64,000 nt of DNA from Turicibacter sanguinis (GTDB lineage: Bacteria; Bacillota_I; Bacilli_A; MOL361; Turicibacteraceae). The notes under the pieces are model-generated. The model was not told the origin of the DNA. It did not search any database and worked only from the letters and a program-made list of their open reading frames with translations. Position numbers and translations under genes: made by a program. Shown piece after piece: positions 20,769 through 42,322 of this stretch (positions within the stretch are counted from its first letter, which is position 1; each line of letters begins with the position of its first letter). The stretch lies in the NCBI RefSeq assembly GCF_013046825.1, contig NZ_CP053187.1:2576001-2640000 (forward strand). The letters are read 5' to 3'.

Positions 20769-20791
20769 TAAATCATCATAATATTTAAAAA

Positions 20792-20868
20792 AATAAAAAA
20801 ACACCATTGCCGGTCAATGGTGTTTTAGGAATGTAGGTAAAGATAAGGAGTGTGAGCACAACTGGCTC
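20792..20868 (-). ncRNA. Candidate small RNA A (about 77 nt)
   Basis: It follows a near-consensus promoter. The 5' hairpin is TGAGC-CAGTTGT-GCTCA, then a pyrimidine tract with CACTCCTTATCTTTACCT, complementary to Shine-Dalgarno sequences, then terminator ACACCATTG/CAATGGTGT with a T run. It lies downstream of the Rieske oxidoreductase gene, whose mRNA may end at the same terminator, so processing from that 3' UTR is an alternative. Confidence 0.65.
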
Positions 20869-36649: not shown

Positions 36650-37504
36650 CTAGTCTAGGCTGGCATTTTTTTGTTTTAAAACTTCTACTAAATCCTGTTT
36701 TTCTTTTGATAACTCTTCAATTTGCTTTCGTGCCTTTTCATTCACTTCTTCAAGTTCTATAGCAGCCTGCTTCTTCATTTCCAATTGCATTTCACTCAAG
36801 GCTAACTGATGATTTCGTCTCTCGAATTCAAACTCCTGTTGAAGCGTTTGGATTGCTATTCTTTTCTCTTCTTCCATCTTCACTTTCAAATTTTGTTGTT
36901 CTTCTATCTCTTTTTGTAACTGGAATTCTTGGCGTTTAATTAACGCTTCTTGATCCTGAACCAACGCCTTTAACTTCACCGACTCCTCAAGCACCTGATT
37001 TGCCGCTTCTATTTTAGCTTGCGAATCAGCAAATACTTTCTCTAACTGACTATTTTTATCTTTTAATAACTGATTTAACTCACGAATATTCTCTTGCTCC
37101 TCTTTTAAGACACCAAAATCCTGAGACATCTTCTTGAGTTTATCCTTTAAACCCTGTAATTCTTTATCTTTTTGCTCTATAATCTCCAATTTTTCGTTTA
37201 GAGCCGCAATTTCTTCCTCTTGTTTATGTCTTAAGATTGATTCCTTATTTTTAATCTCTAATTCACGCACTTGAGTTCGCTCAAACATATTAATATAAAT
37301 ATCATTCATACGTTTTGTAATTCGTTGTAATTCTTCTAAGTCTTGATTAAACTGAGTGGATCCATCTCTAATTTGCGCTAACTCAAACTGTGACACCATG
37401 ACTTCCATTAATTCTTTGTTATTAATCCCATTTTCTTGCGCTAAAACGAGAAACTTCTGCTTTAATTCCTCATCAATTCGCACACTTAATACTGCATCTG
37501 CCAT
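36650..37504 (-). CDS. Ribbon-helix-helix-like DNA-binding protein with long coiled coil
   Basis: A 284-residue protein. The first 45 residues (LSVRIDEELKQKFLVLAQENGINNKELMEVMV) have the strand-helix-turn-helix pattern of ribbon-helix-helix repressors. From about residue 75 to the end it is an almost unbroken heptad-rich coiled coil full of E, K, Q and L. A DNA-binding head with a long coil recalls KfrA of plasmids and MatP of the E. coli terminus, without claimed homology. AAAAAGGTGAAG precedes the ATG, a TATAAT lies about 35 bases further up, and a phased GTATAC array starts 90 bases upstream. Confidence 0.7.
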   Translation of the reverse strand: MADAVLSVRIDEELKQKFLVLAQENGINNKELMEVMVSQFELAQIRDGSTQFNQDLEELQRITKRMNDIYINMFERTQVRELEIKNKESILRHKQEEEIAALNEKLEIIEQKDKELQGLKDKLKKMSQDFGVLKEEQENIRELNQLLKDKNSQLEKVFADSQAKIEAANQVLEESVKLKALVQDQEALIKRQEFQLQKEIEEQQNLKVKMEEEKRIAIQTLQQEFEFERRNHQLALSEMQLEMKKQAAIELEEVNEKARKQIEELSKEKQDLVEVLKQKNASLD

Positions 37505-37593
37505 CTATCTTCACCTTTTTCCATCGCACTTTTTTCTTTATTATACCCTATTTTTTTATTTTTTGCTACCACCCCTATTCCATGTGCACAAAA

Positions 37594-37662
37594 GTATACA
37601 TAAGTATACAAACTCATACACCGACGTAAATAACGTGTTTACAATAGTATACGAAAGTATAC
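37594..37662. repeat. Helically phased GTATAC array (operator or centromere-like)
   Basis: Perfect GTATAC hexamers start at 37594, 37604, 37647 and 37657; degenerate copies TCATAC at 37614 and GTTTAC at 37637 extend each group. Within each group spacing is exactly 10 bp, one helical turn; the groups are 23 bp apart. The two halves mirror each other. It lies just upstream of the RHH/coiled-coil gene promoter. Confidence 0.75.
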
Positions 37663-38458
37663 ACAAAAACTACGATAAGTTTATATTCAATATAACTTTT
37701 ATTATATTGAATATAAAAAAATAGCAAAAAAAATAAAAACAGAAAAAGGGATGAAAGAAAAAAATAAAGAGACCACAAAAGAAGAACAAGAAAAAAGCGA
37801 AGAGATGAGTTAAAATATGGAAATTTATTATTTACTTATAAAGAAATAGCATGAGGGATAAAAAATGCAGTCAAATAGTGATAGTTTAAGTCCTATGTTA
37901 ACATTGGAGAAAAAACGACTAAACAATTCCGATCATGATGATGAAAATTGCAAAAATCGAATTTCGAAGCGACGTGTTATTTAACTCATAAAATTATAAA
38001 GATACACTCAAAATACTTGCTGAATAAAAGCTTGTTATGTTTGGATACAAGAAGCTAAGCTACTCATTTAGAATTACTGTCACACGTGAATCCTAATAAC
38101 AAAGAAAATAGATGCGTTATAAAACAATTAAAATTCATTTAGAATAAAAACGAGTTAGTGTTCGACGCTAAAAAAACAAAAGAAAAGGATGAATAACTAC
38201 ATAAGTGACGTGAGAATACCGTTGATAGTCCCAAATCTGATTGTAAAAACAAATCGAAAACTCCTAGCTATTCCCTTAAGCGCTCAAGATAAACATTGTC
38301 TTCTTTTGAGCAAAAAGAAGCAATCTCACTCAAAATCTTCACAGCCCCGGGCGTATCACTTCTATGCAAAAATAAGTTAGAACTTCCGAACTATAAAAAA
38401 ATCCTAATTCTCTATCGCCCCTCCTACTTCAAGCAGTCACATTTTTGAACAGTAAGCT
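37663..38458. other. Gene-poor 800-base stretch
   Basis: Very AT-rich DNA beside the GTATAC array. It holds one plausible 39-codon frame (37865-37984). A 63-codon frame at 38189-38380 has only a GAAAAGG directly against its ATG and a composition unlike neighbouring proteins, so it is not called. No repeat, terminator or RNA gene was recognised in the rest. Confidence 0.45.
37865..37984 (+). CDS. Possible 39-residue small protein
   Basis: A short frame, MQSNSDSLSPMLTLEKK and so on to SKRRVI, with GAGGGATAAAAA directly upstream giving a well-placed ribosome binding site. It is polar and ends in a basic patch. No promoter or terminator is clear and no family is recognised. It may be chance. Confidence 0.3.
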   Translation: MQSNSDSLSPMLTLEKKRLNNSDHDDENCKNRISKRRVI

Positions 38459-40379: not shown

Positions 40380-40979
40380 TTAATCGACTGATAAAGAAAC
40401 ATCGTCTATATTTACTGCCTCGATGCCGGCATTACCATATACGAATCTCACTTCTATTTGTTCAGTGCCAGCAGGTGCTTGCGAAGTAATACCACGATAA
40501 TATGAGAAAATACTTTCACCTGTTGGAAGATCCCCACTTCTTATCGGAATTGTTAACCCAACTACATTAGAAGGTAAAAAAGTTACAGTAGCAGTTAGTG
40601 GTCCGCCAGTCCCCTGAGCGTTAGCAAAGAATGAAAACTCATAGTAACATCGACTATCATCAGAAACGTCTACTGTCTGTGTTAAAGTAGTATTACCTGA
40701 TAATCTAACAGCTGATTGTCCTGAGTGAACTCGCCCCTGGGAAATTTGGCTAGCAGTTGTACCAGTAACAGTCCAATCAGTTGGAACCTCTGCTGCTGTA
40801 AAAGATTCAAATCCTGGATTATCTAATAACTCTCCTGAAGATTGACATTCACAGTTTCTAGTTGGTTCTTGTGATTCGTGTTTACAGCGGCAATGACAAT
40901 CGCGATCATGATGATTGTGTTCATGACAATCGCGATCCATTCCATCATTTCCTGTTTGAACAATAAAGTAATTTGGCAT
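40380..40979 (-). CDS. Cys/His-rich protein with C-terminal jelly-roll (NTTRR-F1/CBM-like) domain
   Basis: A 199-residue protein without signal peptide. Residues 14-46 are a Cys/His cluster, DRDCHEHNHHDRDCHCRCKH, then ECQSS. From about residue 50, LLDNPGFESF...PTDWTVTG begins a beta-sandwich of the type found in carbohydrate-binding modules and NTTRR-F1 domains of spore surface proteins in Bacillus and Clostridia. A spore-coat or exosporium role is therefore possible. Upstream, AATATAGTA resembles a sigma-K -10 element. Own terminator. Confidence 0.6.
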   Translation of the reverse strand: MPNYFIVQTGNDGMDRDCHEHNHHDRDCHCRCKHESQEPTRNCECQSSGELLDNPGFESFTAAEVPTDWTVTGTTASQISQGRVHSGQSAVRLSGNTTLTQTVDVSDDSRCYYEFSFFANAQGTGGPLTATVTFLPSNVVGLTIPIRSGDLPTGESIFSYYRGITSQAPAGTEQIEVRFVYGNAGIEAVNIDDVSLSVD

Positions 40980-41241: not shown

Positions 41242-42222
41242 TTAAAATAAATCATCAATATGAATATAGTCCCCTGCATTATCTTTTAATTTATCTATCG
41301 AATGGACGTATCGATTGGTTGTCGCTATATTTTGATGAGCCGCAAAATCTCGAACTTTTTCAATACTTGCCCCACCTGTAATAGCAAGGGTAATTGCCGT
41401 ATGCCGAGTTGAATGAACTTTTAAATGTTTATCTATCCCAGCCTTTTTACAAGTTGATTTCAACATATAATTCAAAGAGCTTGGATCAAGTTTCTCATTA
41501 TTCCTTTTATTACGAGAGTGGCCAATAAATAAATATGATTCTGCATCCTGGATCATATCACGATTAGTGCGCTCGATATATTCTTCAATCAACCGCTTCA
41601 GACTCGACTGAATTTTTACCATATCTTTTTTATTTCCTTTTCGCATGACATGAATGACATCATACTCACCATATGTCGTAATATCTTTTAATTTAATATT
41701 AATCATTTCAGATTTACGAAGTGCAGTCGTAAGTGCTAAGACGATAATGGTTTTATTACGAAGTTCCACAATTTTTCTTGTATCAAAGATTGAGATCAGT
41801 CGTTGACACTCATCCTGAGTTAAAAACTCTGTTTCCTTATTATTCACCTTTGGCTTTTCATCTTTCAAATTTCCAAACGGGTTAAAATAAAGTAATGATT
41901 TTCCCGTTCGATTATCTTGATATTTTAATAGCCACTTATACAAAGAGCTCAGTGAAGAGACCTTGCGATTGATCGTAGCAGAAGCACATCCTTTTCCTTT
42001 TAAATCAAGTAAATAATGTTCGACATCAAACATATTAACTGCTATGATTTGTTCTAATTGAATCTGTTCAATATAATCAACTTGAAAAAAATCCAAAATG
42101 TCTCTTTCATATGAAATCGCAGTGTAGTGACTACTGCTTGCTTTTAAATTTAAAAAGTGACGAATAAAGTGTACTTTTTGAGATTCGCCGACGGCTCTAT
42201 TTTGTGATAAAACTATCTCCAT
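41242..42222 (-). CDS. Tyrosine recombinase (XerC/XerD-like integrase)
   Basis: A 326-residue site-specific recombinase. The amino SAM-like domain (about 1-110) precedes the catalytic domain with Arg in TTALRKSEM, HSTRHTAIT (H-x-x-R), the late histidine in AAHQNIATT and the tyrosine in NRYVHS. Start choice: the ATG at 42222 fits GGTGAG just upstream; ATG 42234 is also possible, while the frame to 42315 has no support. It lies 19 kb from dif but no attachment site or mobile element is seen beside it. It could be XerC or XerD or an orphan integrase. Confidence 0.85.
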   Translation of the reverse strand: MEIVLSQNRAVGESQKVHFIRHFLNLKASSSHYTAISYERDILDFFQVDYIEQIQLEQIIAVNMFDVEHYLLDLKGKGCASATINRKVSSLSSLYKWLLKYQDNRTGKSLLYFNPFGNLKDEKPKVNNKETEFLTQDECQRLISIFDTRKIVELRNKTIIVLALTTALRKSEMINIKLKDITTYGEYDVIHVMRKGNKKDMVKIQSSLKRLIEEYIERTNRDMIQDAESYLFIGHSRNKRNNEKLDPSSLNYMLKSTCKKAGIDKHLKVHSTRHTAITLAITGGASIEKVRDFAAHQNIATTNRYVHSIDKLKDNAGDYIHIDDLF

Positions 42223-42322
42223 TCTACTCACCATTCTCCTGTTTATTCCACATTTAATCATATCACAACTTAAAAATTTTTGGATAATAAAAAATAAAAT
42301 ACCACAAATAACCACTCATCAT

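Follow-up and report, generated by a model that had tools for sequence, protein, structure and literature searches.

A putative ribbon-helix-helix and coiled-coil protein of a plasmid family on the Turicibacter chromosome, and a possible second recombination site near dif

We have analysed a window, the whole stretch of 64,000 nucleotides, from the 3.0-Mb, single-contig genome of Turicibacter sanguinis, and we tentatively propose that Turicibacter-like chromosomes hold a second system of site-specific recombination, located 15-19 kb away from a normal dif site. This system would comprise a third Xer-like tyrosine recombinase (TR3), a core site and an accessory protein with a putative ribbon-helix-helix (RHH) head and a long coil, and it would be cer-like and stand beside XerCD/dif. 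The RHH-coil protein, judged from sequence, is a chromosomal member of an unnamed plasmid family, which we define here by an RHH head, a long coil and a GTNNAC array, and the locus is vertically inherited on the chromosome. We read the 36-bp inverted repeat next to the array as a recombination site because of the rigid geometry between array and repeat, the core-site features of the repeat and the intact, co-occurring TR3 gene nearby. The gene of the RHH-coil protein has the following features.

36650..37504, minus strand: gene of the RHH-coiled-coil protein, 284 aa, with the head at about residues 1-45 and the helix at residues 49-283 (open reading frame, RHH_1 and RelB matches, helix prediction, homologues in relatives)
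37540..37545, minus strand: TATAAT -10-like box of this gene, found in 6/6 genomes, with a GTWWAC 53-55 bp away in all six

A sequence-only reading of this DNA had described an RHH head joined to a coil of about 200 residues. The coil stands, but it is longer, since an AlphaFold model predicts one helix over residues 49-283. The RHH head is supported by sequence profiles, whereas its ribbon was not seen in structure models. The RHH_1 profile of Pfam matched the head of the window protein alone with an E-value of 0.0012 and 19.2 bits, below the cut-off of 20.5, and among the heads of the family RHH_1 was matched by 7 of 9 (best E 0.00034) and RelB by 5 of 9 (best 6.4e-5). AlphaFold was run on monomers, once with the whole protein and once with the head, and neither model contains a ribbon strand; the confidence for the head was low (pLDDT of about 42-57 in the first model, a mean of 64 in the second). 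Considering that the ribbon of RHH proteins arises only in dimers, monomer models without a ribbon do not decide on the RHH fold. We regard this fold as a strong lead, supported weakly but consistently by sequence profiles that score below the curated cut-off. A KfrA profile was not among the Pfam or NCBIfam matches of the protein, and searches of solved structures returned coil or chance matches only. A phage origin was rejected, as no homologue of the head occurs in the phages and viral contigs searched. No good -35 element lies at the usual spacing from the -10 box, and the promoter list is empty at this place.

Homologues of the RHH-coil protein were found in 6 of the 40 genomes searched, its own included; these are all five genomes of the genus and one of three other genomes of the family. 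The same six were the only ones with the gene among 395 genomes of the class. Identity to the window protein is 31-46% over the full length and 55-72% in the heads. The polyamine gene cluster that adjoins the RHH-coil gene was not seen at L043 and L044 (genome G003) and L045 (G002), where the RHH-coil gene is kept.

The upstream region of the gene carries an array of hexamers, listed here with their slots relative to the inverted repeat; none of these sites is assigned a strand.

37584..37589: GTGCAC, an outer site of the sequence-only reading, poor and not conserved in relatives
37594..37599: GTATAC, slot -87, doublet, exact site
37604..37609: GTATAC, slot -77, doublet, exact site
37614..37619: TCATAC, an outer site of the sequence-only reading, poor and not conserved in relatives
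37626..37631: degenerate hexamer GTAAAT, slot -55; ATTTAC or ATATAC in the four other genomes of the genus
37637..37642: GTTTAC, slot -44, triplet, array site
37647..37652: GTATAC, slot -34, triplet, exact site
37657..37662: GTATAC, slot -24, triplet, exact site

The array had been read as six hexamers in two mirrored triplets at exact 10-bp spacing. The 10-bp spacing is correct, but the number and the mirror symmetry are not, as the array consists of a triplet (37637/37647/37657) and a doublet (37594/37604), each at 10 bp, with 33 bp between them. An operator-like phased array is nonetheless real: the 220 bp upstream of the gene hold five GTWWAC against a mean of 0.53, and none of 2000 dinucleotide shuffles reached five. 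Across the 64-kb window GTATAC is mildly enriched (14 against 8.3, a count reached by 7 of 100 shuffles), and the signal of the array is the clustering of hexamers, not their abundance in the window. The array is also kept beside the gene in relatives, with GTWWAC at slots -87, -77, -44, -34 and -24 (-23 in two) in 5/5 genomes of the genus and a poorer site at -55. Pairwise identity between these genomes is 79-100% in the sites and 97-100% in the repeat arms; it is 28-51% in the columns between sites, which is about that of unrelated AT-rich sequence and indicates almost complete divergence. In the genome from the sister genus, G006, the array is down to two GTWWAC, which is not above chance (173 of 2000 shuffles); one of them keeps the spacing to the promoter and none keeps the spacing to the inverted repeat.

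The suggested kinship with plasmid maintenance proteins was borne out, as homologues of the head occur on Bacillota plasmids, mostly together with GTTAAC arrays. A tblastn search with the head against plasmids gave E-values of 2e-8 to 2e-7 for three homologues and 2e-2 for a fourth. These proteins of 264-328 residues belong to Caldicellulosiruptor, Sporosarcina and Psychrobacillus and, weakly, to Aeromonas (L067, E 0.02); further homologues, from Lysinibacillus and Paenibacillus, were reached via the first ones. We examined 11 plasmid loci, namely 10 of the 14 second-round records and H4 of the first search; the records left out, H10, H11, H12 and H17, are three more of Paenibacillus larvae and one more of P. 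urinalis. GTNNAC sites lie upstream in 9 of the 11, two of which have two sites only. At eight loci, two to six copies of GTTAAC precede the start within 220 bp, and a ninth locus carries eight GTNNAC; L077 has GTNNAC and no GTTAAC. For L067 and L074, the loci with two sites each, at least as many GTNNAC arose in 170 and 55 of 2000 shuffles and at least as many GTTAAC in 14 and 2. The array is absent from L078 and from L080, whose frame is also broken. Six of the 11 loci share a layout in which sites spanning 18-19 bp are followed by one site 29-30 bp further, and the chromosomal triplet-33-doublet resembles this triplet-gap-site layout. Because the plasmid homologues of the head come with this similar GTTAAC layout, we assigned the RHH-coil protein to the plasmid family. 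In several plasmid homologues the array lies between a TATAAT-like box and the ATG, and a first site directly behind the box suits autorepression. Taken with these plasmid arrays and the example of KfrA given below, the hexamer array upstream of the RHH-coil gene very probably serves its product as operator.

Some plasmid and chromosomal neighbourhoods carry further elements. On pHD05 (L077) a 9,9,30 site layout occurs twice before the gene and a 32-bp perfect palindrome lies further upstream (2630-2661, 2825-2970), and a ParM gene lies downstream of the family gene. In G006 (L047, contig C203, 14961-16208) a ParR-like open reading frame and the pieces of a broken ParM-like gene, spread over several frames, adjoin the RHH-coil homologue; both were recognised by eye. 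An inverted repeat like the 36-bp element was not found beside the plasmid homologues.

The family has a KfrA-like design but not the KfrA fold, as the head of KfrA is not known to be RHH. Like KfrA of RA3 and R751, its members combine a DNA-binding head, a long coil and a repeated operator at the own promoter in a context of plasmid maintenance; unlike KfrA, the Turicibacter protein is encoded on a chromosome and its locus is linked to an inverted repeat. In the portion of the RA3 study available (PMC7783346), five 9-nt repeats, TGTATTGTA, surround the promoter of kfrA, and without them binding and autorepression do not reach full strength; the RHH-coil family has GTNNAC instead. An excerpt of another report describes filaments of KfrA on its operator (PMC7821693). 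The proteins RacA, pSK1 Par and RocS are similar in that a single protein with a DNA-binding head and a coil handles DNA segregation; according to part of PMC11500499, their head is a winged helix of the MerR type, in contrast to the RHH head here.

Next to the array lies an element that the sequence-only reading did not contain.

37681..37716, no strand: inverted repeat TTATATTCAATATAA-CTTTTA-TTATATTGAATATAA, with 15-bp arms and a 6-bp asymmetric centre; candidate recombinase core site (6/6 genomes, conservation, rare arm)

In an unprejudiced scan of the 64-kb window for noncoding stretches with at least 29 of 34 bases conserved in three relatives, only three elements passed: the present repeat, which is conserved as well as dif, dif itself, and 20789-20866. 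None of 2000 shuffles of the local region produced two perfectly paired 15-bp arms separated by 6 bp. Perfect 14-bp inverted repeats are not rare in the window and are mostly terminator-like; the 36-bp repeat is set apart by its conservation and uniqueness. It occurs as a single copy in each of the six genomes, and its arm 15-mer is virtually confined to the locus, with one extra copy in G001 only. The centres are CTTTTA, CTTTCA, CTTTAA and CTTACA, none of them palindromic in any of the six genomes. In G006 the arms carry matching changes, one at position 3 and one at the base paired with it in the opposite arm. At up to 3 mismatches the repeat was found in 9 of 395 class genomes; the three matches outside the family are counted as chance because they lie inside open frames. 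None was found in the viral contigs searched. With its 15-6-15 build, asymmetric centre and one copy per genome, the repeat looks like a core site of the Xer type; for archaeal dif, the part of PMC5357621 available gives 11-bp arms and a 6-bp centre. A hairpin telomere at the end of a linear chromosome was rejected, since the repeat lies inside single contigs in four complete genomes.

Other conserved elements were also observed in the window. The element at 20789-20866, with 34/34 bases matched in three relatives and an inverted repeat CACCATTG/CAATGGTG, is the best-conserved noncoding element of the window, and the stretch gaaaaaagcgaagagatgagttaaaatatggaa at about 37790-37824, upstream of the 36-bp repeat, is alike in four genomes of the genus. 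Scanning the window with Rfam and for tRNA genes yielded no matches. The protein encoded at 40380-40979 shows a weak NTTRR-F1 match and is perhaps a surface or spore protein.

The recombinase gene and dif, which frame the repeat, are as follows.

41242..42315, minus strand: TR3, third Xer-like tyrosine recombinase, probable start 42222 (326 aa); PF00589 with E 1.1e-29, and PF02899
22648..22675, minus strand: XerCD dif site, with 0 mismatches to what we take to be the dif consensus

TR3, which was likewise missing from the sequence-only reading, reached 134 of 335 bits with the XerC profile and 126 of 330 bits with the XerD profile, well below the cut-offs. Its catalytic residues R, K, HxxR, H and Y are kept in 6/6 genomes, and within the genus it shows 76-81% identity, compared with 72-76% for XerD and 68-72% for XerC. 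At E<=1e-40 TR3 occurs in 6 of 395 class genomes, and exactly these six also hold the RHH-coil gene and the repeat of the family. The third genus of the family is represented by two genomes, one of them only 75% complete, and both lack TR3, the RHH-coil gene and the repeat. This co-occurrence is weak as independent evidence because it concerns one clade and perhaps one evolutionary event. In the four complete genomes TR3 and the repeat are 3.5, 1.8, 2.2 and 8.2 kb apart. No close plasmid relative of TR3 was found by tblastn at E<=1e-20.

Elsewhere the genome encodes XerD, which passes its cut-off, together with a XerC-like protein that scores 324.2 of 335.15 bits over a partial stretch. With canonical XerC, XerD and dif in place, a second system is not required for resolving dimers. 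The dif site is about 14 kb from the near end of the RHH-coil gene and 15.0 kb from the inverted repeat. In each of the four complete genomes of the genus it is found opposite dnaA, at a distance of 49.7-52.0% of the genome. The distance of 15 kb to dif given by the sequence-only reading is right, but a special link to the terminus was discarded: the gene order around dif is largely common to the four complete genomes, so the closeness is inherited synteny and does not count as independent evidence.

In the proposed working of the locus, RHH dimers would, with high likelihood, bind cooperatively to the phased GTWWAC hexamers and so coat one face of the DNA, and the coil would join the hexamer-bound dimers. 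Binding at the array probably regulates the own gene of the RHH-coil protein, and autoregulation, which had been offered as the ordinary alternative, is likely at least as a part of the function. TR3 would bind each arm of the repeat and exchange strands in the 6-bp centre; that TR3 recombines the repeat has a chance that we put slightly short of even. That the repeat is its core site, with the RHH-coil array as accessory, we consider a real possibility, somewhat under even chances. The array would then be an accessory sequence that sets when, and between which sites, recombination occurs, as ArgR and PepA do at plasmid cer. The single site at the terminus would serve sister or dimeric chromosomes beside XerCD/dif.

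Among known systems, ColE1 cer employs ArgR and PepA as accessory proteins of XerCD recombination. It is similar in that a core site adjoins accessory DNA, as described in part of PMC5357621, and differs in being a plasmid site with other proteins, while the accessory role in Turicibacter is one that we infer. In the systems XerS/difSL, XerH/difH, XerA/dif and XerL/dif a single tyrosine recombinase acts on a terminus site whose inverted arms flank a short centre and which is often close to the recombinase gene, in the parts of PMC5357621 and PMC9765430 available; the former names linkage between recombinase and site as a possible hallmark of single-recombinase systems. Two features of such systems are found here, an intact Xer-like recombinase and one inverted-arm candidate site in the terminus with a 6-bp centre near the TR3 gene. 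In contrast to those systems, XerCD/dif is also present, the arms are longer and nearly perfect, and an accessory array is attached. The genome gives no sign that TR3 has replaced XerCD, as XerD, the XerC-like protein and dif are present.

The main rival of the recombination-site reading is a purely transcriptional control region without recombination. Here the RHH-coil protein would regulate itself via the array, and the repeat, fixed in phase with the array, would contain a promoter or serve another, dimeric regulator as its operator. We hold this to be somewhat less likely than the recombination site, and several observations suit it. The spacing between the -10 box and the array, 53-55 bp in 6/6 genomes, is almost as rigid as that to the repeat, as in a plain promoter region; this and G006, which keeps the repeat but not the array, speak against a recombination site. 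The presence of canonical XerC, XerD and dif, the co-occurrence with TR3 in one clade only, the plasmid homologues without such a repeat and the lack of a tblastn match to TR3 at E<=1e-20 among plasmids also count against it. Several plasmid arrays sit past a TATAAT-like box and before the ATG, as in KfrA of RA3. Each 15-bp arm is itself a 7-1-7 palindrome, mutated copies excepted, a shape better fitted to binding by a dimeric repressor than by a single recombinase monomer, and the arms are 21 bp, or two turns, apart. Nevertheless, the arms with their C/G centre are oppositely oriented in 6/6 genomes, and in G006 the symmetry between arms (14/15) exceeds that within arms. With the arm nowhere else apart from the extra copy in G001, such a regulator would have a single target, and a Pfam scan of seven genes of the window revealed no regulator.

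Alternatively, array and repeat may form one centromere-like or anchoring segregation site. The RHH-coil protein would bridge or position this site, as KfrA or pSK1 Par do for plasmids, and the recombinase would be unrelated. The plasmid relatives of the family, the head-plus-coil design shared with KfrA and RacA/Par/RocS, the ParM gene on pHD05 and the broken ParM gene with the ParR-like frame in G006 are in its favour. However, there is a single site, near the terminus and not the origin, the ParM neighbours are two cases in 17 loci read, and the scan of seven window genes with Pfam found no ParA or ParM motor gene; a partition system of the ParG/omega type, with a motor gene beside that of the DNA-binding protein, was not found there. 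We hold the centromere-like explanation to be improbable. A MatP-like terminus organiser working at dispersed sites, also suggested earlier, is very improbable. MatP has an RHH fold with a coil and acts in the terminus region, which the head, coil and position of the present protein recall, but matS sites are dispersed, while the Turicibacter locus has a single array at its own gene. Genome-wide, GTWWAC pairs at 10-bp spacing are clustered only at the RHH-coil gene and are elsewhere scattered singles at about the control frequency; in G000 they occur at seven places, three of them at the RHH-coil gene, and the reversed-pattern control occurs at three.

In the literature searched, no pairing of an XerCD/dif chromosome with a second, accessory-controlled terminus site was found. 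A search on Turicibacter with XerC and recombinase found no paper, and the word Turicibacter was absent among the matches listed for chromosome segregation and ribbon-helix-helix. If the recombination-site reading is true, a chromosome with complete XerCD/dif keeps a second, independent recombination site at its terminus, controlled by an accessory protein that belongs to a plasmid family. Should the repeat prove to be an operator only, an unnamed plasmid family has still been defined by its RHH head, coil and GTNNAC triplet-gap-site operator, with a member kept stably on a chromosome. This chromosomal member makes a KfrA-like function testable in Gram-positive bacteria.
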